From a virus, in the IMG/VR virus record IMGVR_UViG_3300048835_000079, positions 1 to 41,394 of that record: a stretch of 41,394 nucleotides of DNA. One strand, written 5' to 3'. Both the position numbers and the translations under genes were made by a program. The notes below the pieces were generated by a model. The model worked only from the letters and a program-made list of their open reading frames with translations. It did no database searches and was not told the origin of the DNA. Positions 1,896 to 41,394 of the stretch are shown one piece after another; the first letter of the stretch is position 1, and each line of letters opens with the position of its first letter.

Positions 1896-1902
1896 AAAAA
1901 AA

Positions 1903-2634: not shown

Positions 2635-2739
2635 CCTAAAAATTGCACCGCCCACTTTGCCGCCGATATGGTCACGGTGCTGAGAAGGAGCCTCACAATC
2701 ACCTAGCGTCAACGGCTGCCTGTAAGTGATTGCTACATG

Positions 2740-2769: not shown

Positions 2770-2784
2770 TCGCGGTCGAAAGGT

Positions 2785-4417: not shown

Positions 4418-4447
4418 AATGCCAATACCCTTCTGCTTAGATAAAAA

Positions 4448-4783
4448 CTAACCCTCTAAAGACGATCTAAACTCAATCAGTGCGGCAACGTGCAATTCAA
4501 GTGACTTTACTTGCCGCTTTAGCTCCTCGATCTGCTCCTGCAAGCACTCATTGCTCAGACGCTTTTGGTATGTCTCAACCACCCGAGTAACTTCCATCTT
4601 GGCATCCTCGCAGACACCGACGATATTTCGGCGAGTCACCGGAAACTGAATCGCTTTGGAAAAATAAGAAATGGCCTCATCCCAATTTTTCAGCGGGCTT
4701 TCCAGTGCTGAAATGGCGTCCCGCAGTTCAAACGACTTCGCGCGACCCAAGACATTCTGCCGTGTTCCCCTGACACCACCCAT
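4448..4783 (-). CDS. Coiled-coil protein between yqaJ and recT
   Basis: The protein has 111 residues from the ATG at 4783 (MGGVRGTRQN), whose A is shared with the upstream TAA (TAATG). The C-terminal half is a predicted coiled coil (ECLQEQIEELKRQVKSLELHVAAL in two blocks). It lies between the exonuclease and the annealing protein, so it may be an accessory factor that links them. No named family is recognised. Confidence 0.75.
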   Translation of the reverse strand: MGGVRGTRQNVLGRAKSFELRDAISALESPLKNWDEAISYFSKAIQFPVTRRNIVGVCEDAKMEVTRVVETYQKRLSNECLQEQIEELKRQVKSLELHVAALIEFRSSLEG

Positions 4784-5778: not shown

Positions 5779-5908
5779 CCTTCTCAATCCCCTTGCATTT
5801 GATCCCATAACCACGAAGCGCAACCTTCAAAAACTTGCGCAGCCTTATAGCTGCTGGGCTCGGCCAGCCCTTTTCAATTACCTCAACCTCCAGTCTGTAT
5901 TTGGCCAT
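5714..5908 (-). CDS. Small basic 64-aa phage protein
   Basis: The sequence begins MAKYRLEVEVIEKG and continues with a helix and the motif LRKFLKVALRGYGIKC, a pattern I have seen in small proteins beside phage recombination genes. A beta-strand plus helix arrangement is likely. Its end overlaps the yqaJ start and its own start overlaps the preceding gene. The function is unknown. Confidence 0.75.
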   Translation of the reverse strand: MAKYRLEVEVIEKGWPSPAAIRLRKFLKVALRGYGIKCKGIEKDDGDSGEVRDKEQVDIDNRVP

Positions 5909-6149
5909 CCTTAGCCGCTCTCCTTACTCGCTCCCTGACTTCACTGGCCACTTCGTAGTGGCTCACGTATCGGCCAGGGTATTCGTCGCTCAGCGCGTTG
6001 GAGACTCGCAAGGCCAAGCGATTAACCGACTCCATTGGCTCTTCGTCGGGCTCAGCCCCCTCGAAGAATTGCCGCTCGACTTCAGCCACCGCAACCTGAT
6101 GCAGTTCATCGGCTGTCAGTCGTAACGCCTCTGGAATCGCCATCATCAT
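5883..6149 (-). CDS. Hypothetical 88-aa helical protein
   Basis: Three successive ATG codons (6149, 6146, 6143) open the frame. The first overlaps the upstream TGA as ATGA and is preferred. The protein is entirely helical and acidic, with segments such as LTADELHQVAVAEVERQFFEG. No domain is recognised. It is part of the packed early operon. Confidence 0.72.
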   Translation of the reverse strand: MMMAIPEALRLTADELHQVAVAEVERQFFEGAEPDEEPMESVNRLALRVSNALSDEYPGRYVSHYEVASEVRERVRRAAKDGQIQTGG

Positions 6150-6517
6150 TTCCCCCAAACAAGCCACTCGAAAAACAACGACCATAAACTCACCGGCTTG
6201 ACTGGCTTCGGGACTGGTCTCGGAAGATCGCTCAAAGTCCGCATCTCCGCGTCCCTATCTCGCCGCTCGCAACACGCATGGCACTGGCATGCACTACCGC
6301 AAGCCTCTGGCCATTTCTCCCTGATCATCGCGACCAACTCAGCCGCGTCGTGAAAGTCCAAACCTGTCAGCAGATCCGCAGCCTCGCGACCAGGCCAGCG
6401 GAGCGCTTCGTACTTTTGATCCAGATTGCCATGCACGATGTACACATGACCATCCTTTACGAGTCCAGCCGCAGCGGTCCTGCCAACAACAACGTCCGCT
6501 TCAATTTGCTTTAACAT
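6146..6517 (-). CDS. Hypothetical 123-aa protein with CxCxxCC cluster
   Basis: The protein starts MLKQIEADVV. An N-terminal beta-rich part (VYIVHGNL) precedes a helical region and a cysteine cluster CQCHACC near residues 78-84 that could bind zinc. A proline-rich stretch (RPVPKPVKPV) and a hydrophobic end (LWSLFFEWLVW) follow; the end could associate with membrane. No family is recognised. The 63 bases upstream to 6580 hold no further gene. Confidence 0.72.
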   Translation of the reverse strand: MLKQIEADVVVGRTAAAGLVKDGHVYIVHGNLDQKYEALRWPGREAADLLTGLDFHDAAELVAMIREKWPEACGSACQCHACCERRDRDAEMRTLSDLPRPVPKPVKPVSLWSLFFEWLVWGK

Positions 6518-6580
6518 GCTGGCAATCCTTTGCGTAAATGAGGTTCTGAATAGCCCCAGACATACAACGCCCCCTTGAAA

Positions 6581-7360
6581 TTAGTTATCGTTTACCCACG
6601 CCCTAATCGCAGCCTTTGAAATGTCGCTGCACTTCGCCCAAAACTTTTTGAACTCATCGAGCTTGTTGTCTTCCTTCGGTTTCTGAAGTTGCTCCTCTTC
6701 TTGTTCTTCCACATCCTCGTATTCAATCGCTTCCGGTTGAACTAGATGATTTATTGACTGTTTTGGTTGCGTCGCTTCCTTAACAACTTGCCTAACCGCC
6801 TTGATGCCTTGCTTTAAAATCTTCGCTTGCTCTTTCTTGTCAGGCACTGCTTTGACAAACTTAGCCGCAAGGCTTGAGGTGATCTCGTCGCGCTCCATCG
6901 CCTCAACAAGCTCTTTGCAACCGCCTTTAATTGCAGCCTTGGCTCGCTTGACTGATGGTTCGCTGACGTTCAACTGTGCAGCCGCATCTGCCAAAGTATC
7001 ATTTGATCCCTTGCCACCTGTGTGCTGATTTCCGCGCTCTCCACCATGTTTCAGCTTCGCCAGCTTCGCCGCCACCGTTTCTCGCTGCGTTTCACTCAGG
7101 TGCCTGCGATGCAGGTTATGGCTGATAACGTACTTCCAAGGATCGGTATCAGGATCAAGCTCCGACACATGGGGATTACGCTGCAGCTCCTCGCACGCCC
7201 GCAGCCGGTGCCTACCATCTATTAGCTTGTCGCACCAAACAACGATATCCTCACGCTGTCCGTTTTCTGCGATGTCCTTTTTTAGTCCCTGATACTCCTC
7301 CTCAGTCATCGGAGGAAACAACGTAGCTGCTGGATGCACTTCATACTGATGCTTTAGCAT
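6581..7360 (-). CDS. ParB-like nuclease/CTPase-domain DNA-binding protein
   Basis: The 259-aa protein has an N-terminal ParB/Srx-type domain: the MTEEEYQGLKKDI segment, then LIDGRHRLRACEEL (47-60), the ParB box with its GRHR core. A helix-turn-helix of the KorB/ParB type follows at about 121-145 (LADAAAQLNVSEPSVKRA). The C-terminus is an acidic Glu/Gln-rich linker plus a final helical segment. It overlaps the GHKL ATPase gene by 20 bases, so the two are likely translated together. It may be a regulator or DNA clamp. No second partition gene (ParA) is present, so plasmid-style partition is not supported. Confidence 0.85.
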   Translation of the reverse strand: MLKHQYEVHPAATLFPPMTEEEYQGLKKDIAENGQREDIVVWCDKLIDGRHRLRACEELQRNPHVSELDPDTDPWKYVISHNLHRRHLSETQRETVAAKLAKLKHGGERGNQHTGGKGSNDTLADAAAQLNVSEPSVKRAKAAIKGGCKELVEAMERDEITSSLAAKFVKAVPDKKEQAKILKQGIKAVRQVVKEATQPKQSINHLVQPEAIEYEDVEEQEEEQLQKPKEDNKLDEFKKFWAKCSDISKAAIRAWVNDN

Positions 7361-18742: not shown

Positions 18743-19174
18743 TTATGCAGTACCAGCCACAGGTGAAATGTGAGTCTCGCCGCTGACGGTCGCGCCATCA
18801 GTTGCTTCCAGTGTTCGCAATCCCGTACAGATGTAGGTGATTGCTCCCACGGTCGCATTCTGAGTGGCCCTGCTGACGACGACGCGACCATACCGCTTGT
18901 TAGGCTTGATGATTCGCAACACTTTGGTTGTGTCGTCCTCAGTGTCTGCCACGGTGATGTTAGTGCCAGCAACATCGGTGGTTGGGCTCGTTGTGTCGCC
19001 TTCCTGGAACTTGATGCTTGTGACAGCACCTGAGACGATCGCACCAAACGGCACGATAATCAGAAGTTCCTCAACGCCAGAAAGGTCAACAGTGGCACCA
19101 TTGACTGCTGATGTTCCAGCAGCGCCAGCCGTTACTGTGGTTGCCTGGATGACGCGGATATCTTTGACTTTCAT
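18743..19174 (-). CDS. Putative capsid decoration protein
   Basis: The 143-aa protein (MKVKDIRVIQATTVTAG) is beta-rich and Thr/Val/Ala/Gly-rich with few charges. It is encoded immediately after the major capsid protein, the usual place for capsid cement or decoration proteins. No family signature confirms this, so the name rests on composition and position. Confidence 0.65.
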   Translation of the reverse strand: MKVKDIRVIQATTVTAGAAGTSAVNGATVDLSGVEELLIIVPFGAIVSGAVTSIKFQEGDTTSPTTDVAGTNITVADTEDDTTKVLRIIKPNKRYGRVVVSRATQNATVGAITYICTGLRTLEATDGATVSGETHISPVAGTA

Positions 19175-19232
19175 TTGACTTACTCCGAAAGACTTTTGGA
19201 TTACAAAAAACTATTGCTCTAAGTGGCTGCGA

Positions 19233-20552
19233 TTAAGAGGTAGCGCACTTCAAGCGGACAAACGCCTCTTCCAGAGTTGGCATTCCGTCAGTCTTCAGCC
19301 GCCCGATGTAACCGATCTGGTTGGTGTCGGCGTACTTCTCGAACAGCACTTGGATTTCCATGTCCAAAGCATCGGCGATTTCGTAGTAGTTCCAGTTGGC
19401 CAGCAACCCGCAGTACAGGCCGCTGGTGTAGGTGTTTGGAACTCGCTCTGATTCGTCGATTGGGTAGCCAAGCAACATATCGGGTTGCCCCATCTGCAGG
19501 CCTGGCTGCCACAGGTACTGGTTATCCTGCAGCTTCAGCTTGCTGATGATCTTGACGGCATCGCGATGGAACAGCCACCGAACCGCGCCCAAAAGACCAG
19601 TTCGATACTGGGCCTTCAAAGCGTACTTGGCATCAACCAGGCCATCAGCCGTGATGCTAGTGGCTGATCCGGTCGCAACATCCCGAGCGGTGCTGATGCC
19701 GTCAGCCGATGCAGTAAAGACCCCAAGAGGCTGCTGAGCGCCGTGGCCTGTCAGGTAGCCATCTTCCATGGCTTCGCCCGCGTCCCTGGACATTTCAGAC
19801 TGAACCTCGGTGACGATCCCCTGCATCGTTCGTCGGACAAGATCCCGCGAAAGCCGGATCATGCCGGTCAAGTGATGAGGGGTCAAAACCTTTTTGCCGT
19901 ACTTGAGAGCCGTGTCTTCGGATGACACGGTAAGCTCGCTGGACCAGCCAAAGGTGTTCATCCTCGCGGTTCGCTTGCGAATCCCAAGGCTGCCAGCTTC
20001 GGCAACCGTATGAATCTTGGCGTACCGCCGAATGAAAAGCAGGTCATCAACCTCTTTCAGAAGCCCAGCTGCAAACTGCTCAGAAGCCAGCAAATAGCCA
20101 GCCTGCTCAGGGCTGTCGGACTGCAAGGCGGCCAGCTGGTTTGGCAGCAAGCTGTCTTTGCCTCGATGCAAAGCATGAGTAAAAGCCTGTTCGTAGTCTG
20201 CGGAGCCACGTGCGCCACAGTCCACAAACTTGTATTGCGGCTTACCGTCTCGGCTAAATGACCGAATAGCCACTTGCCGCTTTTCGTCCTGAGTTCGGCT
20301 GGGATTGACGCTTGGATCGTCAGGCGTGATGCGTGCGCTTCTTTGACGGGCCTCGATATTCTCGATTGCCTTACGACGCTCTAAGGCGGCGGTGATATCC
20401 GAGGTGTCGGAAATCATCGCGTTGTACTTTTCGTCGCACTCCTTGGACCAGTTGGATTCATTGGCCTCAAGGTAGGATCGTGCTTCAGTGACCAACTTTG
20501 CCCGAGCTTCCAAAAGCTCCTTGTTGGTCTTTCCCTTTGGATCGAATGCCAT
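19233..20552 (-). CDS. HK97-fold major capsid protein
   Basis: The 439-aa protein begins MAFDPKGKTNKELLEARAKL. Residues 1 to about 110 are charged and helical, the delta/scaffold domain normally removed by the prohead protease. The rest has HK97 capsid segments: ASEQFAAGLLKEVDDLLFIRRYAKI, a MIRLSRDLVRRTMQGIVTEVQ spine-helix region, GYLTGHGAQQPLGVF and MLLGYPIDESERVPN. It forms the icosahedral shell. It has its own upstream promoter and leader, in keeping with high expression. Confidence 0.93.
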   Translation of the reverse strand: MAFDPKGKTNKELLEARAKLVTEARSYLEANESNWSKECDEKYNAMISDTSDITAALERRKAIENIEARQRSARITPDDPSVNPSRTQDEKRQVAIRSFSRDGKPQYKFVDCGARGSADYEQAFTHALHRGKDSLLPNQLAALQSDSPEQAGYLLASEQFAAGLLKEVDDLLFIRRYAKIHTVAEAGSLGIRKRTARMNTFGWSSELTVSSEDTALKYGKKVLTPHHLTGMIRLSRDLVRRTMQGIVTEVQSEMSRDAGEAMEDGYLTGHGAQQPLGVFTASADGISTARDVATGSATSITADGLVDAKYALKAQYRTGLLGAVRWLFHRDAVKIISKLKLQDNQYLWQPGLQMGQPDMLLGYPIDESERVPNTYTSGLYCGLLANWNYYEIADALDMEIQVLFEKYADTNQIGYIGRLKTDGMPTLEEAFVRLKCATS

Positions 20553-20814: not shown

Positions 20815-21681
20815 CTACGCTCCCAGTTGAGCCCTTGCCAGAGCCGCCCTAGCTCCTGCCGGTGCTTTTCTGGTCATCATTCGATTGATAGTCTGGTCCA
20901 GCGTGCCAATGCGGTCAGCAAGCCCAGCTTCGACCGCCTCTTCGGCCCGCATCATCTCGCCACCACCAAACTTGCTTTCAACCTGGTCAATTCTGACTCC
21001 ACGATTTGTAGCCATGGCCCGCTTGAATTTCTCATAGCTTCCGGCAATGCGGTCCTGCACGAACGCCCGCATTTCATCAGTCATTGGCTCAAACCCGCTG
21101 AATCGTGCTTTCTTTTCTGGAGTTCGCATGATCTCCACCTTGACTCCAAGCTTTTCCAGCCAGCCAGACTCATCGGCGTACATCGAAATCACGCCGATCG
21201 AACCCACTTCACCGCTGGGAGTTACAACCAGCTCGCCGGCCGCAGCTCCGATCCACAGGGCCGCCGATGCCATCATGCCATTGGCAATCGCGGATATCTG
21301 GGTATTGCCATTGTCCCGAACCCTGCGAACTGCATCAGCAGCTTCCTGGGTGCCTGTTACCGTTCCGCCTGGACTGGTAACGTTCAGCAAGATTTTGGAT
21401 ACATTGGGGTTGGCATCCAATGTTGCAACCAGCCTGGCCAGTCCGTCCAGGGAAGTTCCCCCGTAGTCTCCTGATGGAGACAGCACACCCCAAACTGGCA
21501 CGACTGCCAGCATGTTACTGGTCGTTGCAGCCCCAACAGCCGATTGCTCGTTTCCGTTTTCGTCAAGAAACATCAGCTCTTTAGGGGACTCAAGCAACTT
21601 GCCTGGTTCGCGTTGCCTTGCAATTAGCGTCGATACATACTCTGGCAGAATGGCCATCGGTTCCATTGGATCAAATCGCAT
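20815..21681 (-). CDS. Prohead protease, S49 (SppA/protease C) family
   Basis: The 288-aa protein has the S49 serine protease layout: VVPVWGVLSP (60-69), ILLNVTSPGGTVTG (97-110), the catalytic Ser139 in NGMMASAALW, and GSIGV (160-164). The probable general base is Lys190 or Lys191 in TPEKKARFSG. It removes the N-terminal scaffold of the capsid protein. The start overlaps the portal end by 11 bases. It has no signal peptide, unlike bacterial SppA. Confidence 0.92.
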   Translation of the reverse strand: MRFDPMEPMAILPEYVSTLIARQREPGKLLESPKELMFLDENGNEQSAVGAATTSNMLAVVPVWGVLSPSGDYGGTSLDGLARLVATLDANPNVSKILLNVTSPGGTVTGTQEAADAVRRVRDNGNTQISAIANGMMASAALWIGAAAGELVVTPSGEVGSIGVISMYADESGWLEKLGVKVEIMRTPEKKARFSGFEPMTDEMRAFVQDRIAGSYEKFKRAMATNRGVRIDQVESKFGGGEMMRAEEAVEAGLADRIGTLDQTINRMMTRKAPAGARAALARAQLGA

Positions 21682-23227
21682 TTTGTAACTCCTCAGAATT
21701 GGTGGCTGTCGCAGCCAAAGTATTGAGCCGCTGAATTACCCTGCCATAAAGCTCATCGATTCGCGGCTGAATCGACTTTGGCCCTTGCTCTGGCTTGAGC
21801 GAATCAAGCCATCCAAGAAATTCACTTGGGATCTTGGCTTTTTGCTTTGCCTGAGCCGTGATTCTTTTTTCTATCCTGTCTAGATAAGCGTCTGCTACGT
21901 CGCTGTAATCGATTGCCTCTTCTCGATCGCTATCTTCTGGGCTTGCCTGTGGGGATTGCTGCGGCGGAGCTACCAAAGCCTGGTCGTCTTCGTAGACAAT
22001 GTTTGATGGAATTCGATAGGATGCCGCGCGAGCCGATTTGCTTGGGCCAAAGTTCACCTTTCGTCTGCCTTCGTCTTTGGTGATTAACCCGTTGTTATAA
22101 AGCTCGACCGACCCAGAAGCCCTTTCGCTGAAGGAAACCCAGTCCAGCATTTCATCATCTACATCGATTGAGTGTGAGCCGGAATCAACCTGATCACTAC
22201 TTAGTAGCTTTCGGTCATATTGGACCCTGAACTTATTGACCCACGGCAGTATATCGTCGTCTTTGTGCTCGTGGTTGGCTTGCTCAAGGGATGCAAAAGC
22301 CGAGTTGGCCCCGTCAATCAGCTTGTGGACTTTGATGCCAATCGCCATGGCAAGTAGCCGGATATCGAATTGCTTACCTTCCAGCATCTGAGATTTTTGC
22401 GGGTCGATCGTGACTGGGACAAACTTGGCCCCTTCTTCCAGCAAAATCAACTTGTGGGCCTTGCCAAGTCCTGACATTGCCTTTGACAAGCTTTGCATGT
22501 AGGTCTCTTCCGCTTCTTCATCAAGAGCCCCGTCCATCGTGATAAATCCGACTGGATTGGCTCCGTTGCTAAAGAAACGATTGGAAAATTCACCTTTGGC
22601 CATCGCGCCGCCAAAACACTCGGTCAGCAACTGAACCAAATCCCAACCCCACCATGGACTGGGGCCAAGCCCTTTGATGTGCAAAACGTCTTGGTAATCG
22701 AAATACTTCGTCTGGCCTCCGATTTTCGTTTCGACCATCAGCATTCCGTCTTGATCATCAGCGGCCCCGATCTTTTGAGCCATCTCTTGATTCATTCGAA
22801 TCAATCTTGTCCTGTCAGGCAAAAGCGGATAAAGCTCGATATGCCCGCTCTCAGACTCTCGATCAATCCACGCACAGCCATTTCCAAACAGTAACGCCCA
22901 TTGAGTGAGCTGCTGTCGAAGAGAGGGCGCGTCAATTTCTTTGTTGGCCATTAAGTTGACGCATCGCCACGCTGGGTGGTCTCGATCAAACAGCCTGCCA
23001 TCCTCTTCTTCCCGAAAGACATACCATGGCATTCCAAACATCTTATCGGTAATGATTTGCACAGCCCGCTTGATTGCTGGTAAGGCCATAACTTTTTCGT
23101 GAGTGACGCTCACCCCAGCCGTATTTTGGTTGCCCAGCCCAAGCATGCGAACCACGGCAGGATCTCTTGGGTGAGATCCACTAAGCGAAATCGCGGAAAA
23201 CATGGATGCCACTGTTTCAAGAATCAT
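21671..23227 (-). CDS. Portal protein (HK97 family)
   Basis: The protein is 518 aa from the ATG at 23227 (MILETVASMFS). HK97-portal segments are present: LPAIKRAVQIITDKM, HPAWRCVNLMAN, QLTQWALLFGNGCAWIDRE, the VLHIKGLGPSPWWGWDLV region and NRFFSNGANPVGFI. The C-terminal part is Pro/Gln-rich, then helical. The dodecamer forms the DNA channel and docks the terminase. Confidence 0.93.
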   Translation of the reverse strand: MILETVASMFSAISLSGSHPRDPAVVRMLGLGNQNTAGVSVTHEKVMALPAIKRAVQIITDKMFGMPWYVFREEEDGRLFDRDHPAWRCVNLMANKEIDAPSLRQQLTQWALLFGNGCAWIDRESESGHIELYPLLPDRTRLIRMNQEMAQKIGAADDQDGMLMVETKIGGQTKYFDYQDVLHIKGLGPSPWWGWDLVQLLTECFGGAMAKGEFSNRFFSNGANPVGFITMDGALDEEAEETYMQSLSKAMSGLGKAHKLILLEEGAKFVPVTIDPQKSQMLEGKQFDIRLLAMAIGIKVHKLIDGANSAFASLEQANHEHKDDDILPWVNKFRVQYDRKLLSSDQVDSGSHSIDVDDEMLDWVSFSERASGSVELYNNGLITKDEGRRKVNFGPSKSARAASYRIPSNIVYEDDQALVAPPQQSPQASPEDSDREEAIDYSDVADAYLDRIEKRITAQAKQKAKIPSEFLGWLDSLKPEQGPKSIQPRIDELYGRVIQRLNTLAATATNSEELQNAI

Positions 23228-23378
23228 TGGCCACCACCTTTGTCTGTTCGTAAATTGCAATCGCAATCATCGGAACTCCCAGCGCCAACAGGCCGATCGG
23301 AGTCGCAACAAGAAAGCCCGCCACCACACAGCATGCGTAGCCAGTGATAAACACCAAATTGAGGACTAGCGATTTCAT
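23217..23378 (-). CDS. Small two-helix membrane protein between terminase and portal
   Basis: This 53-aa ORF (MKSLVLNLVFITGYACCVVAG) is too short for most ORF callers. Its ATG (23376-23378) overlaps the terminase TGA as ATGA, and its stop overlaps the portal start, so it is almost certainly translated. Residues 4-24 and 26-43 are hydrophobic, joined by a short turn with a Pro, suggesting a membrane hairpin. The C-terminus is polar. It might be a holin-like or membrane-docking protein; there is no direct support for either. Confidence 0.75.
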   Translation of the reverse strand: MKSLVLNLVFITGYACCVVAGFLVATPIGLLALGVPMIAIAIYEQTKVVANDS

Positions 23379-25138
23379 GCTGTCAAAACTCCTCTGCGAC
23401 GATAAACACTGGAACGCTTTGGCAGTTGCTTGGTTCCCCAGTACGCCATCACGCTTGCTACCATTCCGTCTATTTTTCGGTAATCGTCGTTTTTGTAAGG
23501 CTTTTTAAGTATCCTAAACCCGCGAGCATTCATGTAAGTCGAAGTGTGGCCAGCTTGCCAATTAAGACAAGGATTGTTGCAATGAATCAGGCTTTGATCA
23601 ATGACAGCCGCCTCGAAGTCGTCAATTGGCTTTTCCATCATCTGAGCGTTTTGCGGGTACTCGATTTGATTGATCTTCGGGTACTTGTCTTCACACCATT
23701 CCGTAAAGTCCGCCGCAAATGTTCGGTCCTTTACCAAAACCTTGATATCCAGCGATTTGGTTAGCCTTTCAAATTCTTCTCGAATGAATCCCTCTTGGAT
23801 CGTGTCGCCGGGAATCATTACCAGGTGCCCAGCCGCTACCCACTCTTTGAATGCGGCTTTATCAGCGTTGGCTTCAATGTAACTCTCCGTCATCCAGAGC
23901 CGCGCGAACAGCTGGATTCTGTCACCAACTGGAATGCAAATCCCCAGAGCCGACATGTCTTTTGTCTTGCTCAGGTCCATTCCAATAGATGCTGGTCGGC
24001 CACGATAATCTTCAATGCTGTACGCCGCACCGCAAGCCAACCATTGGTCCATGCGGAGCCATTGATTCGCGGTGTGCTGCCAGATGTTCAATCGGTACAT
24101 CTTGAAGTCCGCTAGTCCGCTGATGGTTCGTTTAGATTCATTGTAATCAGCAAGGAATTCTTCTTCGTGGGCAGTATGTCCCCAAGCTGGATTGGCCATT
24201 TTTCCATACTTGACTGGATCTTCTGCCAGTTGCTGATCAGTTAAAGTCTGCGGTGCTTCGTAAATTGCCACAAACAACTGGTCATTGCGTTCCGCGCCAC
24301 TGACAACTTGCCTTGCGTAATCTTGGCGCTCCTTCCCATAGCCATCAGGGTTGTTGCCAGCGGTGGATACTTCTATGTGGAATGGCTCGGCCCGAGAGAT
24401 CCCAGCCCGCGAAATGATCTTAATGAAATCGCGGTCAACTACGTGAGTTTCGTCAATCAGGATATTACCATTGATTCCCTCCTTGCTTGTCTTTGTTCTT
24501 TCGTTGGCCGATGAAAGAGGTTTATATTTTGACCTGGTTGGAATGTGCTCAATAGACTTCTCGTTGCGATTGGTCTTACATTCACTAGAAAGCTCTGGCG
24601 ATTGCTCCACCATGGCTATCGCATGAGCCATTGCAATGCCAGCCTGAGTTCCGTCCTTGGCACCACCAAAACACTTAGCGCCCATTTCTCCATCGCCACA
24701 AGTAAGATAAACTCCCCAGGCTGCAAGTGTTGGCGTTTTTTTCTGCTTCTTAGGTATGTAAATTGACGCTTGATTAAATCGCCTAATGACGCGACTCCAT
24801 CTTTCAGAATTGCGAACCCAACCAAACATCCGCATCGTGCATTCGTACTGCCAATCAGGAAATCCACCATCATTCACCCATCGAGCGTAAACCGCAGCTC
24901 GTTCAATCGACTTTTCCTCACCTCCATCTTCCCATTCATCAAGTATCTGTCGATCAACCTCTGGGCACCCAGACCGCAACAACACATTTTGGCCAGCCCA
25001 TTCACCTTCATAAAGCCTGCAATACTTTTCGATCCACCAAACAGTATAGGCTCCGCGCGAAGGATCGAACCAACAACCATTGGCAGTCGCCAATCTGTCT
25101 GATTCATTTCTGATCCATTGCTTGGTTGCGCTGTCCAT
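23375..25138 (-). CDS. terL: Terminase large subunit
   Basis: The 587-aa protein belongs to the HK97-like Terminase_1 group. The ATPase has a Walker A-like PKKQKKTPT (129-137), Walker B NILIDE (225-230) and a coupling segment EVSTAGNNPDG. The RNase H-like nuclease has Asp388 in IGMDLS, a second acidic region DDFEAAVIDQ, and the final motif KIDGMVAS with Asp557. It cuts and pumps phage DNA into the prohead. It shares one base with the small subunit stop (TAATG). Confidence 0.95.
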   Translation of the reverse strand: MDSATKQWIRNESDRLATANGCWFDPSRGAYTVWWIEKYCRLYEGEWAGQNVLLRSGCPEVDRQILDEWEDGGEEKSIERAAVYARWVNDGGFPDWQYECTMRMFGWVRNSERWSRVIRRFNQASIYIPKKQKKTPTLAAWGVYLTCGDGEMGAKCFGGAKDGTQAGIAMAHAIAMVEQSPELSSECKTNRNEKSIEHIPTRSKYKPLSSANERTKTSKEGINGNILIDETHVVDRDFIKIISRAGISRAEPFHIEVSTAGNNPDGYGKERQDYARQVVSGAERNDQLFVAIYEAPQTLTDQQLAEDPVKYGKMANPAWGHTAHEEEFLADYNESKRTISGLADFKMYRLNIWQHTANQWLRMDQWLACGAAYSIEDYRGRPASIGMDLSKTKDMSALGICIPVGDRIQLFARLWMTESYIEANADKAAFKEWVAAGHLVMIPGDTIQEGFIREEFERLTKSLDIKVLVKDRTFAADFTEWCEDKYPKINQIEYPQNAQMMEKPIDDFEAAVIDQSLIHCNNPCLNWQAGHTSTYMNARGFRILKKPYKNDDYRKIDGMVASVMAYWGTKQLPKRSSVYRRRGVLTA

Positions 25139-35562: not shown

Positions 35563-36344
35563 GCGTTTACTCCTGCATGCCAATTGTCAAACGAATCGTC
35601 GTAATTCTTCGGCTTGTGCTTCACAACCCAATCCGCAATCCTTGCTGCGTCCTCGCCATCATCCATCCACCTGCAAAAATTCTGCTCGCTGAACTCAGGT
35701 AGTTTTCCGCTTTGCTGCATCGGCTTACGCTCCTGCACCGATCGACCTGAATGGCAGTTACAAGCGACCATGTACGTTAGCGAACCATTGACCTTCTCAG
35801 CGTCAATCTCGAGTGACTGAACCTTCCGCATCGTGTCCATTCGAACCACACGAACCAGCCCACGATCGCTACACAGCAGACACCGATACCGAGGACCGTC
35901 GTAGTCGTTCGCTGACGGGAAGGCTGCTTCGATGGCTGCTAAGATTTCCGCTTCGCTAGCACCCTGCTGACGCATCTCCATAGACTTCACTAAAGCCGCA
36001 GCCATCGGTGAGCCTTGGTAATCTCGCTTCCTGCCATAAGACTTCTCGCGCTCAATAGCTACCGCCCGATCACGCTCCGACTGCATGCCAGACTTGCGGG
36101 CTTCAAGAACCAGCCGGCGAATAAATGGACCTGGCTGTTGTAGGTTTTCATAACTGATCCCACCTTCAACCAAAAGATTCCGCAAAGCCTCTCGGCATTC
36201 GCCAATGGACAGATCACGCCAAGCGACAGTCCACCCATTGCGAGTTCTGTTAAAGTCAGGTGAATGCTTTTCTGCTGTAGCCTTGAAAGCCGGAAATGCG
36301 ATAATCAGTTCATCGCAAAACAAGTCCGCTTCGTGATCGTTCAT
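35559..36344 (-). CDS. Probable helicase-loader-like replication protein
   Basis: The 261-aa protein has an N-terminal helical region like phage helicase-loader/inhibitor proteins (FCDELIIAFPAFKATAE), a charged middle, and a zinc knuckle built from CLLCSDRGLVRV (about 152-163) and ACNCHSG (about 196-202). The latter order, CxxCxDxG...CxC, is seen in DnaC-type loaders. No ATPase domain is present, so it would load or recruit a host helicase. The gene is coupled to the DnaD/RepO-like gene by an ATGA overlap. Confidence 0.68.
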   Translation of the reverse strand: MNDHEADLFCDELIIAFPAFKATAEKHSPDFNRTRNGWTVAWRDLSIGECREALRNLLVEGGISYENLQQPGPFIRRLVLEARKSGMQSERDRAVAIEREKSYGRKRDYQGSPMAAALVKSMEMRQQGASEAEILAAIEAAFPSANDYDGPRYRCLLCSDRGLVRVVRMDTMRKVQSLEIDAEKVNGSLTYMVACNCHSGRSVQERKPMQQSGKLPEFSEQNFCRWMDDGEDAARIADWVVKHKPKNYDDSFDNWHAGVNA

Positions 36345-37141
36345 ATAATCGCTCCTTCTGCTTTGACGGTTGCTGGCTTTGGTTGTGACGCTGGCAAATA
36401 GTTCGTTTTCAAGCTATCTGCTGCCCTGTTCAACCACTTGACTAAAAACCTTGGCATCCCACTGGCAGTCTTTTTGGGGTGAACCGAAAGCCAAGCTTTC
36501 GCTTTTCGACACTCGGCAAGCACATCCATTGCAGGGTAGGCGTCAGACCACTCGGTAAGCTGGCTGTGCGTTAGCTCCCATGTTCGGTCAATCCCACTGC
36601 ACTCAAAAATCATGACCGGAGGCGGCTCCGTTCGTGGCTCGTCCACGACGGAGCTATCTTCTTGAATTGGCTTGGCTTGGTTAGGCTTGGCTAGGCTTGG
36701 CTTGGTAGCACCATCCATAGTAGGTTGCTTAGCAGGCTCCTTAGGAGGTTGCTTAGCAGGCTCCTTAGGAGGTTGCTTAGTAGGCTCCTTAGGAGGTTGC
36801 TTAGTAGGCTCGGCTATGATTTCTCTGCCGTGCTTTTTTAGATTGCCCCTAACGTATTGCGGGCAGTGATCTGACCAGTCATGGACTATCAATCGGTGGT
36901 CACTACAAACGTCCAACCACCCACATTCAATCAAAGAATCGACCAGCAAATCCGGGTCGCCTTCCCAGTCAACCATGATGGCGATTTCTTCGTTTGTAAA
37001 CCTGCCGATATCACCCGTAGGGCAGTTCTTAGCTGTCGATAGCCACAGCCCCTCCAGGAGCCCTATAATGCCTCTGCGAGATTCACCTAGCCTGCGTTGC
37101 AGCTTTACAAACTTCAGCAGTTCCGTTGTGCCAGCCTTCAT
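36341..37141 (-). CDS. Replisome organiser-like replication protein with KQPPKEP repeats
   Basis: The 266-aa protein from the ATG at 37141 has an N-terminal winged-helix-like region (SRRGIIGLLEGLWLSTAKN, RFTNEEIAIMVDWEG; about 20-90) and a conserved C-terminal DNA-replication domain (LTHSQLTEWSDAYPAMDVLAECRKAKAWL, MPRFLVKWLNRA). Between them lies a stretch of about four KQPPKEP(A/T) repeats, encoded by 24-bp DNA repeats. It resembles phage replisome organisers that bind the origin. No origin iterons could be defined. Confidence 0.76.
   Translation of the reverse strand: MKAGTTELLKFVKLQRRLGESRRGIIGLLEGLWLSTAKNCPTGDIGRFTNEEIAIMVDWEGDPDLLVDSLIECGWLDVCSDHRLIVHDWSDHCPQYVRGNLKKHGREIIAEPTKQPPKEPTKQPPKEPAKQPPKEPAKQPTMDGATKPSLAKPNQAKPIQEDSSVVDEPRTEPPPVMIFECSGIDRTWELTHSQLTEWSDAYPAMDVLAECRKAKAWLSVHPKKTASGMPRFLVKWLNRAADSLKTNYLPASQPKPATVKAEGAII
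36723..36812. repeat. 24-bp tandem repeat, about 3.75 copies
   Basis: The unit GGTTGCTTAGCAGGCTCCTT plus AGGA repeats without gap at 36723, 36747, 36771 and, partly, 36795; the last two copies have TAGTAG in place of TAGCAG. It encodes the KQPPKEP linker of the replication protein, so copy number probably varies by slippage. It is not an iteron set because it lies wholly inside a coding linker and follows codon phase. Confidence 0.85.
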
Positions 37142-37145
37142 TGCA

Positions 37146-37487
37146 TCAAATTTCCTCAATCACTAATTCCGTTTTCTCGTCTTCCTTCGACTTGACTTTG
37201 ACCTGGCAATACCGGACTTCCGCGACGAACTTGGGCGAATCGTCCGGCAATACTCCGCAATGCACGAGGCCATCAATTGCCGCTTTTGCTGAAATGCCAT
37301 CGGCGTCACACAATCGCGATCGATAGCTAACGACTGTGATACGGACTGGTGGATTAAGTCGCGTACCTTTTTTCGCTTCCAGTGGTGCATCGCCAGCAGC
37401 TGATTCCACGTTGGCAGGGCAAACGGGATCACTACTGTTAAGGACCGTCGCCGTTCCATACTTGCTTCCCTTCGTGTATCGTTTCAT
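37146..37487 (-). CDS. RusA-like Holliday junction resolvase
   Basis: The 113-aa protein from the ATG at 37487 has the RusA signature: CDADGISAKAAIDGLV (60-75) and GVLPDDSPKFVAEVRYCQVKV (78-98). The Asp61/Asp63 and Asp82/Asp83 groups correspond to the metal-binding acidic residues and Lys68 to the conserved lysine. It resolves branched DNA before packaging. It is the first gene downstream of the cassette array in the direction of transcription. Confidence 0.82.
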   Translation of the reverse strand: MKRYTKGSKYGTATVLNSSDPVCPANVESAAGDAPLEAKKGTRLNPPVRITVVSYRSRLCDADGISAKAAIDGLVHCGVLPDDSPKFVAEVRYCQVKVKSKEDEKTELVIEEI

Positions 37488-37579
37488 GGTCCCTGTATTT
37501 CGTTCTTGCCGTAACAAAAAGCCCTGTGTTTTTTAGTGTTGCTTGGCGTGATAGGCAGACGGGAGTCTGTATAACAGTA

Positions 37580-37588
37580 GTTATCGGG
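37580..37588 (+). other. Leftmost core site of the cassette array
   Basis: GTTATCGGG opens the first cassette. Its reverse complement CCCGATAAC stands at 37912-37920, the other end of the same cassette. The bases to the left (CAGAC GGGA GTCTG hairpin, then TATAACAGTA) do not form an attC with it. This is therefore the boundary between array and phage backbone, either a weak attI or a secondary G|TT site. Confidence 0.7.
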
Positions 37589-37904
37589 ATTCAAACGTCC
37601 GCGATCTTTGCCATGCCGTCCACGCCAACTCAACTTCGTAACTGTCGTAGCATGTCGTGTCGATGCTGTTGCGTCGCACGTTTCCGATGGATGTTTCCGC
37701 TTTAACCCACCGCTCAAACCTCGCTCGTTCCTTTTCTGTCTCCATCAACTGCATTTGCTCCTTCGATGGCATTTCTGTTGCGATGATGTCCACGCAATAA
37801 ATGAGGTTACTAATCAAATCGTAAGCGTTGCCTGCATCGGTCACATCTGAGCAAGCACACTTTTCCGCCATCTGTTTCAACTGACCTAAAACATGATCTC
37901 TCAT
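37581..37904 (-). CDS. Cassette 1 protein, 107 aa
   Basis: The protein (MRDHVLGQLKQMAEKCACSD) is helical, with two CxC-like cysteines near the start and a C-terminal FERWVKAETS...YEVELAWTAWQRS. That ending is shared by many phage-encoded proteins of unknown role (an aromatic W-x2-W-Q helix). Its TAA stop (37581-37583) is made by the core GTTA of the cassette boundary. The ribosome-binding site is weak. Confidence 0.72.
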   Translation of the reverse strand: MRDHVLGQLKQMAEKCACSDVTDAGNAYDLISNLIYCVDIIATEMPSKEQMQLMETEKERARFERWVKAETSIGNVRRNSIDTTCYDSYEVELAWTAWQRSRTFESR

Positions 37905-37911
37905 GGTAGAA

Positions 37912-38005
37912 CCCGATAACAATGTAATGCACGGGAGTTGCGGTCCGCGCGTTTTCTGATGGTTAGATCACGGGCCGCAACCCCGTGATTACAAGCGTTA
38001 TGCGG
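37912..38005 (+). other. attC site A
   Basis: CCCGATAAC (37912-37920) and GTTATGCGG (37997-38005) bound two arms that pair through GTAAT-CACGGG-GTTGCGG, with single unpaired G and A in the left arm. The right end reads ACAAGCGTTATGC, close to the classical CAAGCGTTA end of attC sites. It separates cassettes 1 and 2. Confidence 0.85.
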
Positions 38006-38390
38006 ACTCTTCCGCACTCCAGTCGTTGGACTCGAAAAACTCATCCATTGGCTCCAATTCTCCGTTTTGGTGCCAATTCGCTACCTGCATGTTTTGTCCG
38101 TAGAACGTATCCCACATCTCACCGACAATTCTTTCTAATCGCTCGATCTTGTCAGCCGCTTCTTGCATGAGCCGATCGGATTGCGTGTTTACACGCACAA
38201 GGGCCAATTCACGGTTTTTGTTCCACTCCTCGTCTTTGGCGTCATTCCACCATCGTTCGGCTTCGTGCTTTTCCCATCGCTCGAACTCGATGCAATAACT
38301 CTTGTCGTCCTTGTCCTGCACCCGCCAAACGTCGCGACCACTAGACGCATCCCGAAGCCGCATAACAATGGGTTGATCCGAAGCACTCAT
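37998..38390 (-). CDS. Cassette 2 protein, 130 aa
   Basis: The protein (MSASDQPIVMRLRDASSGRD) is acidic and Trp-rich, with CIEFERWEKHEAERWWNDAK and a helical end (AADKIERLERIVGEMWDTFYG). The start at 38390 lies in the loop of attC site B, with GGAG 10 bases upstream, so the first residues are encoded by the attC arm. The TAA stop is made by the core GTTATGC. The function is unknown. Confidence 0.76.
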   Translation of the reverse strand: MSASDQPIVMRLRDASSGRDVWRVQDKDDKSYCIEFERWEKHEAERWWNDAKDEEWNKNRELALVRVNTQSDRLMQEAADKIERLERIVGEMWDTFYGQNMQVANWHQNGELEPMDEFFESNDWSAEESA

Positions 38391-38452
38391 TCGCGTTTTT
38401 CTCCAATGGTTAAATTTTTCGTTCGTGCTCGGATAACCCAAGCGTTATTTTG
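38358..38452 (+). other. attC site B
   Basis: CCGCATAAC (38358-38366) is the exact reverse complement of the core opening cassette 2 (GTTATGCGG, 37997). The right core is GTTATTTTG (38444-38452), preceded by CCCAAGC. The arms pair through GGGTT-ATCCG-AGCAC, again with extra G and A only in the left arm. The loop carries the ribosome-binding site of cassette 2. Confidence 0.85.
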
Positions 38453-38681
38453 CACTGATCCTATTCACTATCCGTGCGACAACATCCATCACGGACGGGT
38501 TTCCGTACTGCCCTTCATCGACATGCACAAACAACTCTGACGCCTCCACCTTCCAATCCTTATCAGACGGAAGTTCACCCCAAAAATCTTCCATCAGTGC
38601 TCTCGCGATTTGCTCTGCACTTGGCATCGATTCTGCCACGGGCACATAAGTCACACCGTCAATCACAACGCTTTTGGCCAT
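38445..38681 (-). CDS. Cassette 3 protein, 78 aa
   Basis: The protein MAKSVVIDGVTYVPVAESMP begins with a small beta hairpin (DGVxYVP), common in small phage proteins. It continues as a helix (SAEQIARALMEDFWG) and ends in a helical segment with VVARIVNRISAK. The TAA stop overlaps the core GTTATTTTG. No named function. Confidence 0.74.
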   Translation of the reverse strand: MAKSVVIDGVTYVPVAESMPSAEQIARALMEDFWGELPSDKDWKVEASELFVHVDEGQYGNPSVMDVVARIVNRISAK

Positions 38682-38702
38682 ACTCCACCACCCTTCCACA
38701 CG

Positions 38703-38795
38703 AAAAATAACACCGCAATGCAGCCGAGTTGCCGAGAGGCTGCATCACAAAAGAAAGTCACCCCCGGCAACCGGCTGATCCGGGGCGTTCGTCAG
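38703..38795 (+). other. attC site C
   Basis: The left core AAAAATAAC (38703-38711) is complementary to the opening core of cassette 3 (GTTATTTTG) at 8 of 9 positions. The right core is GTTCGTCAG (38787-38795). The arms pair as AT-CAGCCG-GTTGCCG with an extra G and A in the left arm. The ending CCGGGGCGTT is GC-rich compared with other sites. Confidence 0.82.
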
Positions 38796-39178
38796 ACTAA
38801 TGCGTCCGACGCTTTTACAGGCTTCCCATCAACAACCACATACTTCACCGCATCTTCGACCAAAAAGAATCGCGGTCGCAACTTGTGGCGATCCAACCAA
38901 GCCGCCATCACTGCTTGTACTTCATTTTCTAACTCCGCTTGCTGTTCCGCTGTCGAATCGTCCCAGCATTCCGCGTAATCGCCAGCATAAGAATCTTGGC
39001 AGCTAACATGCTCCAGCCAATCGTCTGCTCGCCACATGCTTTCCGGTTGTGGAGGTGGGACGCACTTGCCGACCCAAAAAACTTCGTGCGCGTAACCATT
39101 GGCCGCGTCTTCGATCGCGTCTTCGACTGTCTCGTATGACCCTTCGTATTGTTCTTCGTCTGTTGAAATCGCATACAT
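38792..39178 (-). CDS. Cassette 4 protein, 128 aa
   Basis: The protein (MYAISTDEEQYEGSYETVED) is very acidic. It has a conserved-looking order: YETVEDAIEDAANGYAHEVFWVGKCVPP, a CQDSYAGDYAECWDD segment, then the helix ELENEVQAVMAAWLDRHKLRPRFFLVED. I recall similar proteins in phage genomes, so phage relatives may exist. CTGGAG lies 8 bases before the start. The function is unknown. Confidence 0.76.
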   Translation of the reverse strand: MYAISTDEEQYEGSYETVEDAIEDAANGYAHEVFWVGKCVPPPQPESMWRADDWLEHVSCQDSYAGDYAECWDDSTAEQQAELENEVQAVMAAWLDRHKLRPRFFLVEDAVKYVVVDGKPVKASDALV

Positions 39179-39194
39179 AAATTGCTCCAGTTAG

Positions 39195-39288
39195 CTAACG
39201 AACAAAAAATTGCACGGAAGCGACGGAGCAACCGTGAGGACAATGGAGCATCAAACGCCGTCGCTCCGTGAATTTATGCGTTCGTGGG
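39195..39288 (+). other. attC site D
   Basis: The left core CTAACGAAC (39195-39203) matches the complement of the opening core GTTCGTCAG at 8 of 9 positions. The right core is GTTCGTGGG (39280-39288), preceded by AATTTATGC. The arms pair through AATT-CACGGA-GCGACGG with one extra G and one extra A in the left arm. The stem is the clearest in the array together with site E. Confidence 0.87.
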
Positions 39289-39291
39289 ATG

Positions 39292-39603
39292 CTACCAGTA
39301 CGCAAACTCTTTGCGTGTCAACTCGTACCACGAGTCGCTGATAGCCTCCCAATAATCGTCGTAGTCGTCCTCTCGTCGCAACGTGACAGCATTCGCAAAC
39401 GCCTCTGGCCGTAACGTCTTGACGACGATTTCGTCGCACGACAATCCATCCTTCGACGTGATGTCGCGACTTCCACCATGGTCGATGTCGCTATTCCGGT
39501 AAGGCTCCATGAGCACACGCAACAGCGGCTCGTCGAGTTTCCCTAAGTCATAAGCGCCGATGACCGTTGATTCCAAAATCGTGTATCCCTTATTCCATCC
39601 CAT
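39292..39603 (-). CDS. Cassette 5 protein, 103 aa
   Basis: The protein MGWNKGYTILESTVIGAYDLG begins with a motif found in small hypothetical proteins (MGWNKGYT). It is acidic and rich in Asp/Tyr towards the end (REDDYDDYWEAISDSWYEL). An open frame continues upstream through attC site E, but the first ATG after the site at 39603 is preferred. TAG at 39292-39294 ends it 3 bases from the core. Confidence 0.74.
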   Translation of the reverse strand: MGWNKGYTILESTVIGAYDLGKLDEPLLRVLMEPYRNSDIDHGGSRDITSKDGLSCDEIVVKTLRPEAFANAVTLRREDDYDDYWEAISDSWYELTRKEFAYW

Positions 39604-39608
39604 CGCAC

Positions 39609-39702
39609 ACCACGAACAAAAAATTGCACATGAGCCGCCGATAGGCCGTTTTGCCAGTGGCGACTCAACACCGGCGGCCCCGTGAATTTCAGCGTTATCG
39701 GG
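39609..39702 (+). other. attC site E
   Basis: The left core ACCACGAAC (39609-39617) is the reverse complement of the opening core GTTCGTGGG at 8 of 9 positions. The right core GTTATCGGG (39694-39702) follows TTTCAGC. The left arm AACAAAAAATTGCACATGAG pairs with the right arm as in site D, with extra G and A. The central stem is GCCGCCG/CGGCGGC. Confidence 0.87.
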
Positions 39703-39703
39703 A

Positions 39704-40000
39704 TCAAAACGCTGGGTCATGCCCGACAAATTGCCCCGCATCGTGCTTCGACCAGCATTCTCGGCACGCTGGCTTTGCCGCCCAATCGCCCTCAAAGTCG
39801 TTTGCGACAATCAGGGCAGTTTCGGTGTCAATCGGAACACCCCACCGTAAAAGATCGTCATTGCCGCAAATGCAACATGTCGCCATCGGATATTGCAGGT
39901 GGATGACTTCCGGCGACAACTCACCGTATCCATCGCGACCCGATAACAACGCGATGCACGACGAGTCGCGGTGGCTAGGTTTTTCGTTCGCTTCGCTCAT
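39704..40000 (-). CDS. Cassette 6 protein, small zinc-finger, 98 aa
   Basis: The start at 40000 (MSEANEKPSHRDSSCIALLS) has GGAG 9 bases upstream inside the attC loop. A shorter start at 39886 (MATCCICGNDD) gives 60 aa and lies outside the site. The conserved part has two zinc-type pairs, CCIC and ACRECW, as in small treble-clef proteins, with ALIVANDFEGDW between. The function is unknown. Confidence 0.7.
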   Translation of the reverse strand: MSEANEKPSHRDSSCIALLSGRDGYGELSPEVIHLQYPMATCCICGNDDLLRWGVPIDTETALIVANDFEGDWAAKPACRECWSKHDAGQFVGHDPAF

Positions 40001-40043
40001 TCAGCTTTTCTCCCGCGACCGTGTGATCGCTAACGTTCCACGG
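39939..40043 (+). other. attC site F
   Basis: The left core CCCGATAAC (39939-39947) is an exact reverse complement of the opening core GTTATCGGG (39694). The right core GTTCCACGG lies at 40035-40043. The arms pair through GCGAT-CAC(G)ACG-GTCGCGG, with the same extra G and A in the left arm. The loop holds the start region of cassette 6. Confidence 0.86.
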
Positions 40044-40045
40044 AC

Positions 40046-40384
40046 CTAGACGCCCAACGCCTTCCGTTCTTTCAATGTCAACTTGCGTAAACCGCTCTCG
40101 CGGTGCAATTCACGATCTACCGGCAATTCGTCGAAAACGCCGTTTGCTGGAACATAGTAATTCCAACTACCGTACTGGTTCTTCTCTACCCATGCCTCAA
40201 ATTCATGAAACGTCGGATCTGGTGTTAGCCCAGGAAACGGGCGAACCTCTTGGCGTAGCTTTTCACAAAACTTTGACGCTTCCGATGCCATGCTGAACCA
40301 TGCAATGGTTCCTCGATGACCATCATCTACGCTTGTACGCGAGACCGCGTACACAATGCACTTCTCTAGGCTTGCTGCCATCAT
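40046..40384 (-). CDS. Cassette 7 second gene, 112 aa
   Basis: The ATG at 40384 overlaps the stop of the upstream gene as ATGA. The protein (MMAASLEKCIVYAVSRTSVD) has a beta start, an aromatic centre (FHEFEAWVEKNQYGSWNYYVPANG) and a basic C-terminus (LRKLTLKERKALGV). No family is recognised. A two-gene cassette is unusual in integrons. Confidence 0.74.
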   Translation of the reverse strand: MMAASLEKCIVYAVSRTSVDDGHRGTIAWFSMASEASKFCEKLRQEVRPFPGLTPDPTFHEFEAWVEKNQYGSWNYYVPANGVFDELPVDRELHRESGLRKLTLKERKALGV

Positions 40385-40788
40385 TCCTCCCACACGTCTT
40401 TGCCGGTTTGCTTTTGAAACTCACGATCCACTTTTGCGACTGGCCGAGACTTAGACCGTCGCGTGTAATACTTCTCGCTTCGCAATCGTTCCCATTGCTC
40501 GCGATCCGTCACCGACCACACTGAAAACGGTGGTGGGTCTTCGCCTCGCATGATCGGAAACGGCGTTCCTTCCCAATGCCCAACTAGCACCCAATACAAA
40601 ACTGCTGACTGCTTTTGTGGTTTTGGGAAAACTCGTCCGAATCCGTTGCACTTTTCGCAGGCGTACCAATGGTCGATTGATTCGTTGTCCCATCGACCAC
40701 CCTCGCCCATACACGCATCGCACAGCACCGAGGCCGTGGAACAATGGGTTGCAACGGAGTCGCGGCAACGTTGGTTTGGTTTAGTCAT
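40381..40788 (-). CDS. Cassette 7 first gene, DnaJ-type zinc-finger protein, 135 aa
   Basis: The start at 40788 (MTKPNQRCRDSVATHCST) lies in the loop of attC site G with GAGG 7 bases upstream. Two zinc knuckles, CDACMGEGG (23-31) and CEKCNGFG (44-51), form a DnaJ-like finger. The middle is aromatic (LYWVLVGHWEG), and the C-terminus is basic. Its product may bind nucleic acid or protein through the finger. Confidence 0.78.
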   Translation of the reverse strand: MTKPNQRCRDSVATHCSTASVLCDACMGEGGRWDNESIDHWYACEKCNGFGRVFPKPQKQSAVLYWVLVGHWEGTPFPIMRGEDPPPFSVWSVTDREQWERLRSEKYYTRRSKSRPVAKVDREFQKQTGKDVWEE

Positions 40789-40828
40789 AGTCTTTCCTCG
40801 CGACCCGTTGAACCCAAGCGTTCTGCGT
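40734..40828 (+). other. attC site G
   Basis: The left core CCGTGGAAC (40734-40742) is an exact reverse complement of the opening core GTTCCACGG (40035). The right core GTTCTGCGT (40820-40828) follows CCCAAGC. The arms pair as GGGTT-CAACGG-GTCGCG with extra G and A in the left arm. The core pair lies 785 bp apart because this cassette carries two genes. Confidence 0.87.
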
Positions 40829-40830
40829 AC

Positions 40831-41109
40831 CTACTGAATCTCAACTGACTCGCCAAACCATTGCTTGGCACAGTCCTCGCTACAGAATGGGACGCCATTC
40901 GCCATCACCCATCCGCCTGAATCTTGATGCCCCCAATGTCCGCATTGGTCGCACGCCATGTATAGCCCATCGATCAGATACCCGCATCTGTCGCAATCGT
41001 CGTCACCGCACTCCGCTAAATGCCGTGCGTGTTCTTTGCCATCCTTCCACGGATCGGACGCAGAACAACGCGATGAACACCGAGCGACGGAATCAGGTTT
41101 TTTCGCCAT
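40831..41109 (-). CDS. Cassette 8 zinc-ribbon protein, 92 aa
   Basis: The start at 41109 (MAKKPDSVARCSSRCSASDP) lies in the loop of site H with GGGAGAAAG upstream. The core has several zinc pairs: CGDDDCDRC, CDQC with GHWGHQDSGG, and FCSEDC. These resemble a treble-clef or MYND-like finger. It ends KQWFGESVEIQ. The longer frame to 41184 lacks a good start site. The function is unknown. Confidence 0.76.
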   Translation of the reverse strand: MAKKPDSVARCSSRCSASDPWKDGKEHARHLAECGDDDCDRCGYLIDGLYMACDQCGHWGHQDSGGWVMANGVPFCSEDCAKQWFGESVEIQ

Positions 41110-41155
41110 GCTTAATCTTTCTCCCGTCGCCGGGTTATCGCAGGACATTCGGGCG
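41058..41155 (+). other. attC site H with a degenerate core
   Basis: The left core ACGCAGAAC (41058-41066) is an exact reverse complement of the opening core GTTCTGCGT (40820). The right core is ATTCGGGCG (41147-41155), with A in place of the G of the usual G|TT. The arms pair through GCGAT and GCGACGG with extra bases in the left arm. The changed base may block cleavage here and join the last two cassettes. Confidence 0.78.
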
Positions 41156-41188
41156 ACGAATGGAATTTCGCGTCCATCGCTCATGCAA

Positions 41189-41394
41189 TTATTCTTGACG
41201 AGTTATCTCGATTCGCACTTTGAAACCTTCGATTAAAAAGTCTTTGTATGCCCCATGTATCCGAAGTTCCTTGATGGCTACCATCATGCCCTGTGCTTCA
41301 TCTCTGATAACCTCGTCGCCCGAACGCTGCGTGACTGCGGAAGCCTTGTCCGCTTGCCGGGCATCCTCGCCCGAACAAGCGGATGAAGCAGAAT
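41189..41394 (-). CDS. Zinc-finger-like 91-aa cassette protein, 3' part (spans the circular join)
   Basis: This is the C-terminal portion of the gene whose ATG is at 197. In this copy the coding sequence occupies 41189 to 41267 and continues into the repeated bases 41268 to 41394. Residues from about 48 onwards read GDEVIRDEAQGMMVAIKELR, then HGAYKDFLIEGFKVRIEITR and end with TAA at 41189-41191. The cassette opens at the degenerate core at 41147. Nothing in the sequence gives a function. Confidence 0.7.
   Translation of the reverse strand, partial: SASSACSGEDARQADKASAVTQRSGDEVIRDEAQGMMVAIKELRIHGAYKDFLIEGFKVRIEITRQE
41268..41394. repeat. Terminal direct repeat, right copy
   Basis: This is identical to 1-127, so one copy should be removed when circularising. 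It lies within the cassette array and contains a strong hairpin (the copy of 78-116). A repeat placed in a mosaic region is a place where an assembler could join molecules wrongly, so junction reads deserve checking. Confidence 0.93.

Follow-up and report, generated by a model that had tools for sequence, protein, structure and literature searches.

Integron gene cassettes with genes opposed to their attC sites form an array in a tailed-phage genome

The IMG/VR record IMGVR_UViG_3300048835_000079 (41,394 bases, analysed as a whole and called the window here) had been described, in a preliminary description made from its letters, as a phage genome carrying an integron gene-cassette array without an integrase. 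We find that the region is a true integron cassette array, consisting of attC sites and cassettes with no integrase, in the genome of a tailed phage. This identification is supported by base pairing within the sites, by the detection of known attC sites with a model of them, and by a signature of circular cassettes. The cassette genes are coded on the strand opposite to the attC top strand, related phages exchange cassettes, and phages of the same kind encode an integron integrase. We consider it very probable that the array is mobile, that an integrase acts on its inverted cassettes in trans, that they are expressed by read-through, and that the array is an exchangeable store of accessory genes for the phage.

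The repeats of the window are integron attC sites

Nine cassettes had been placed end to end from 37580 to 41267 and on through 1-232, separated by eight regular sites and one atypical site. A covariance model made solely from the eight regular sites, R1, matched the + strand at each of these places (Table 1). The sites were therefore confirmed; the series of cassettes needs the qualification that the one at about 40036-40820 holds two open reading frames (ORFs). All eight regular sites have the extra unpaired G and A described for the left arm, with sites F and H carrying one more unpaired base. The right core GTTATCGGG of the atypical last site falls within the stop codon of a phage gene at 225-707.

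Standard pairs occupy 91.5% of the pair cells in the eight sites, compared to 69% after shuffling. Both sides have changed in 16 of the 22 pairs, and sliding the partner by 1-3 columns lowers pairing to 30-40%. Folding energy was weaker evidence, with the bottom strands of sites E and F folding no better than shuffled sequences. None of the Rfam families matching the window resembles attC; the search gave just one tRNA-like match and one miRNA match that scored well under its cut-off. When R1 was run over 790 kb (the window and other viral loci), it found only the sites of the window and of one sister contig at E-values up to 1. In a phage P1 record it detected the class 1 sites directly after aadA, cmlA and aadA (E 7e-6 to 8e-4), and it gave weak matches to Vibrio-type sites. 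A short degenerate motif derived from the window sites matched 37 viral contigs, in 29 of which R1 had matches, many of them as arrays of 6 to 12. In an alignment of 111 distinct sites, which was fitted to the structure, 94.6% of cells pair and 590 cells have changed on both sides, compared to 171 when shuffled. The attC of window cassette 4 and its homologue in another phage record, G043, show compensatory differences in an alignment read by eye.

If a cassette is excised as a circle, its opening core is expected to pair with its closing core. In the window, as previously reported, 9 of 9 bases pair in five cassettes and 8 of 9 in three; in the last the figure is about 12 of 13. In 13 arrays comprising 92 cassettes, pairing within the cassette reached 5.47 of the 6 variable positions. 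With shuffled pairings the value was 2.51 (2.98 at most over 2000 permutations), and between the two cores of one site it was 2.69. These values bear on the alternative that the repeats are hairpins between genes, without a role as recombination sites, and that they were shuffled by homologous recombination of the phage. The window does encode suitable genes, namely a RecT-like protein (just below the cut-off) and a YqaJ exonuclease, but sites within an array have little sequence in common (mean column identity 57%). Such shuffling predicts neither complementarity within the same cassette rather than the same site, nor the recognition of known attC sites by R1, nor arrays beside IntI, and we regard it as highly improbable.

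The cassette genes are inverted relative to attC

In class 1 integrons the R1 top strand follows the direction of the genes, and in G043 and a further phage record, G029, it points away from intI. Judged by this canonical orientation, every cassette gene of the window is coded on the - strand, against the attC top strand; the usual arrangement, in which gene and attC share a direction, is absent. The longest ORF was opposite to attC in 66 cassettes, in the same direction in 9 and ambiguous in 18, and seven of the 9 come from one isolate-derived record, L080. Several of 84 opposite-strand ORFs match Pfam families (DNA methyltransferases, Lar restriction alleviation, GIY-YIG and others), whereas 0 of 73 same-strand ORFs do. 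For each of the nine window ORFs tested, phage codon usage favours the - frame over the other five, although barely so for the last. The cassette 4 gene and its G043 homologue differ at 16, 16 and 56 sites by codon position in the - frame. Collectively, these results indicate that the genes are inverted relative to attC. As a separate observation, L080 (IMGVR_UViG_2883346072_000004, 358-6730) has the canonical gene direction, and cassettes of 470-bp length recur in it four times between others.

The attC sites also carry start signals. Of 95 attC sites in the inverted arrays, 31 contain both a Shine-Dalgarno-like sequence and a start codon, and 23 more have them just after the attC; in the canonical array of L080, 0 of 11 sites have both. 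When the test was limited to unpaired loops, the signals were found in 16 of 111 sites on the gene strand and in 2 on the other strand (shuffles: mean 3.5, maximum 13 in 1000). Because the start signals lie inside attC, unrelated cassette proteins have attC-encoded N-termini such as MENQNQADTAPVDRLVMP in common. Within the window, sites B, F, G and the last one contain start signals, as does site H by inspection. In one related phage, G030, a terminator-like hairpin lies just past the attI-like site (see below), in the direction of the cassette genes.

The orientation of the genes and the position of their starts suggest how the array may be expressed. Each cassette, lying with its gene against the usual integron direction, would be translated from its own start in or beside its attC, following read-through from upstream phage genes on the - strand.

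Related phages exchange single cassettes

Related phages swap whole cassettes one by one. Among G030, G031, G037, G039 and G024/G048, whose backbones are 70-95% identical, single cassettes are shared at 95-100% identity from end to end while their neighbours differ. Cassette 6 of G039 is cassette 4 of G048, and the cassettes after it differ; likewise, cassette 3 of G037 is cassette 6 of G048, and cassette 7 of G030 is cassette 8 of G039. Cassette 4 of the window matches G043 at 78% DNA identity from the core into the attC and no further. DNA methyltransferases and Lar are among the anti-restriction cargo of the related arrays.

The flank before the first cassette is common to the related phages and ends in CKGATAATTCAAAG/TT (the stroke marks the junction), beyond which the sequences diverge. 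In 12 viral records, including some near-duplicates, this motif adjoins an R1 array and is correctly oriented; it resembles the end of attI1 (ACAAAG/TT). By its position, the left edge of the window array may possibly be an attI as well (Table 1).

Phages of the same kind encode an integron integrase

No tyrosine recombinase was found in the window with TIGR02249 and PF00589, in agreement with the preliminary description, and any movement of the array would therefore require an integrase supplied in trans. In G043 and G029, a gene for an integron integrase scoring above the curated cut-off lies next to an attC array; the complete arrangement of intI adjoining an array is thus found in these two records and not in the window. 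Terminase, portal and capsid genes are on the same contig in the records of G043, G029 and G031. The G043 integrase can be aligned over 304 residues to Vibrio IntI4, whose structure is solved, and the alignment takes in the segment that separates the catalytic boxes, a marker of integron integrases. It is at most about 39% identical to IntI in phage and plasmid collections, and its gene sits in the usual place, transcribed away from the array.

A host integrase acting in trans on the window array is plausible. A co-resident phage with its own intI is a second possible source, since such phages exist. Either enzyme would excise and insert the cassettes as circles. When a genome collection was scanned for the host with two IntI proteins, the sole hit was a distant recombinase of Clostridia. 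Separately, an 'xerD integrase-like' protein of virus Rctr41k (GenBank KX853513; L130, 4680-5678) scores 383 bits against the integron integrase model (cut-off 265), and R1 found no attC in the 25.6-kb stretch at E-values up to 1.

The array may be longer than the window

The window ends in an exact repeat of 127 bp that lies inside a duplicated last cassette. A sister contig, IMGVR_UViG_3300048591_000337 (L050; G010), is 100% identical to window positions 1-25450, and before that stretch it has a second copy of the last cassette, with one single-nucleotide polymorphism (SNP) at position 128, and three further cassettes. The circle of 41,267 bp assumed earlier is thus unproven, as it rests on a terminal repeat within a duplicated cassette beyond which the sister contig continues. 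The true genome may carry about 1.6 kb of array beyond that in the window; alternatively, two versions exist side by side. The terminal repeat measures exactly one 127-mer and stops one base short of the SNP that separates the two copies of the last cassette (window 1-128 and 41268-41394; L050 1-228 and 1522-1869); the label 'circular' may be an effect of the repeat.

We considered the sister contig as proof of two array versions in the population. This was weakened by the finding that the two contigs share their starting base, which lies exactly 127 bp ahead of the SNP. Such a start fits a branch of the assembly graph at a repeated 127-mer; the sister contig may therefore be the same genome.

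Contig ends that coincide with a repeated cassette, and the doubtful circle closure, could also suggest that the assembler joined a bacterial integron to a phage. Against such a chimera, array and backbone are joined at the right-hand side in the sister contig, arrays occupy the shared attI-like site in other phage records, and the codon usage of the cassettes fits the phage backbone; we consider it scarcely credible.

Is the array mobile?

Several observations weigh against a mobile, expressed store of useful genes. Neither the window nor the sister contig encodes an integron integrase, and we found no direct sign of recombination in the window's own array, as the sister contig may be the same genome assembled further. 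The left edge, CTGTATAACAGTAG/TTATCGGG, differs from the shared attI motif, and its junction occurs in no other viral contig. Promoter scans gave nothing above chance. No function was found for any cassette gene of the window; neither Pfam nor PDB yielded a relative of the cassette 4 protein, which resembles, weakly (28%), only a hypothetical protein of Vibrio phage PhiPS02, and whose predicted structure is of poor quality, with a mean pLDDT (predicted local distance difference test) of 54.

The array might accordingly be a passive relic, a piece of a host chromosomal integron captured once and no longer mobile. The missing integrase speaks for this, as does the degeneration of the last sites, site H being without GTT. 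A relic does not readily account for the intact cores and arms of seven sites, or for a cassette 4 held in common, end to end, with another phage. The related arrays differ by single cassettes where backbones are 95-99% identical. These observations demonstrate exchange in the phage set and not strictly in the window phage. On balance we think a relic unlikely, and favour a mobile array of inverted cassettes served by an integrase in trans. Such an array would serve the phage as a store of small accessory genes open to exchange, some of which, across the wider phage set, would counter host restriction; the cassettes of the window itself may have a similar counter-defence role.

The phage backbone

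The window carries terminase, portal, capsid and tape measure genes, all on the - strand, and is thus a tailed phage, which bears out the earlier view of the array's carrier. Its terminase large subunit is at most about 30% identical to those of named phages, and a 496-residue protein near the array has no match among them.

Three side observations concern the backbone. A cytosine DNA methyltransferase at 1903-2712 (-) is 41% identical to one in a G043 cassette (19069-19815), so the same kind of gene is found in the backbone of one phage and in a cassette of the other. The Rfam tRNA match at 1521-1657 (-) scores 45 bits and spans 137 bases, as if about 65 bases interrupt it, and ARAGORN found no tRNA. 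Short tandem repeats at 36680-36810, within an ORF at 36341-37159, encode a weak match to a Pro/Thr disordered repeat.

Table 1. Features of the window, with strand and supporting evidence.
Feature	Position	Strand	Evidence and remarks
attC site A	37912-38005	+	R1 89.7 bits; site in the model's own alignment
attC site B	38358-38452	+	R1 82.9 bits; Shine-Dalgarno-like sequence and ATG of cassette gene inside, - strand
attC site C	38703-38795	+	R1 66.3 bits
attC site D	39195-39288	+	R1 75.2 bits; compensatory changes in homologous G043 site
attC site E	39609-39702	+	R1 78.5 bits
attC site F	39939-40043	+	R1 72.7 bits; start codon and Shine-Dalgarno-like sequence inside
attC site G	40734-40828	+	R1 86.6 bits; start codon and Shine-Dalgarno-like sequence inside
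attC site H	41058-41154	+	R1 62.8 bits; right core GACATT, not GTT
Atypical last attC site, long loop	47-232	+	R1 29.1 bits, E 1.4e-4 for 101-232
Left array edge, possible attI-like junction CTGTATAACAGTAG/TTATCGGG	37555-37583	+	Sequence; same position as attI-like site of related arrays
Cassette 1 gene	37581-37922	-	113 residues; function unassigned; - frame best of six by phage codon usage
Cassette 2 gene	37998-38441	-	130 residues from ATG in site B; codon usage
Cassette 3 gene	38445-38699	-	84 residues; codon usage
Cassette 4 gene	38792-39178	-	128 residues; 80% identical to cassette gene of integrase-encoding G043; codon usage
Cassette 5 gene	39292-39600	-	About 103 residues; codon usage
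Cassette 6 gene	39704-40000	-	98 residues; codon usage
Cassette 7, second gene	40046-40393	-	115 residues; codon usage
Cassette 7, first gene	40381-40788	-	135 residues; start inside site G; weak DnaJ zinc-domain likeness below cut-off; codon usage
Cassette 8 gene	40831-41184	-	About 105 residues from start in site H; codon usage
Cassette 9 gene (part)	3-218	-	Crosses record ends; 98 residues in sister contig (L050 1563-1859)
Terminal repeat, first copy	1-127		Exact 127 bp; inside duplicated last cassette
Terminal repeat, second copy	41268-41394		Exact 127 bp
Terminase large subunit	23375-25138	-	phrog_9, E 2.5e-97; phage identity
Portal protein	21671-23266	-	phrog_12, E 1.7e-64; phage identity
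Major head protein	19233-20552	-	phrog_10, E 7.5e-51; phage identity

Comparison with known integrons

The preliminary description knew of no phage with such an array. This proved wrong, as integrase-less attC clusters in phages were reported by Qi et al. 2023 (PMC9892861), who surveyed 10,705 phage genomes and found 17 such clusters, along with 3 complete integrons and a single integrase on its own; in their work several phage attC sites were shown to function with IntI1. The integrase-less clusters (CALINs) of phages TJE1, P12002L and PH101 (PMC9892861) resemble the window in having attC arrays without an integrase, small cassettes and methyltransferase cargo. However, they have few sites, and the genes of TJE1 and PH101 share one direction, called typical. 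The array described here has nine or more cassettes, genes that run against attC and starts inside attC; cassette exchange is visible in the phage set, and related phages have an attI-like site in common.

In the literature we searched, which was mostly open-access and did not include bioRxiv preprints, we found no description of inverted cassettes with starts inside attC or of an attI-like platform shared by phages. We tentatively propose, as one possibility, a phage-adapted class of integron, in which an attI-like platform would hold inverted cassettes with starts in or next to attC, translatable from a transcript crossing the array; these would form a shared and exchangeable counter-defence store, with some of the phages contributing the integrase. 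Integrons are familiar as gene stores of bacteria, and those of phages as rare borrowings. Phages that keep an attI-like site and swap single cassettes, including anti-restriction genes, would be regular integron users.

The complete integrons of Shewanella phage M16-3, Vibrio phage Va_90-11-286_p16 and a P1 isolate (PMC9892861) have intI, attI and attC as G043 and G029 do, unlike the window, which has no intI. Their origin is a host or a transposon, and the IntI of M16-3 is 95.3% identical to that of Shewanella oneidensis. Class 1 cassettes (aadA, cmlA) have the same attC architecture as the window and are found by R1. In class 1 integrons, however, the genes are oriented with their attC sites and are expressed from a promoter located at attI. 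Genes that are inverted and have their start signals in attC would be a different answer to the problem of expression, with the start brought by each site instead of a promoter common to all at attI. The integrons of Treponema (PMC3607928) are similar in having an atypical relative direction of intI and cassettes, but there intI and the cassette genes are on the same strand and intI is transcribed toward attI, whereas in G043 transcription of intI leads away from the array and the inverted elements are the cassette genes.

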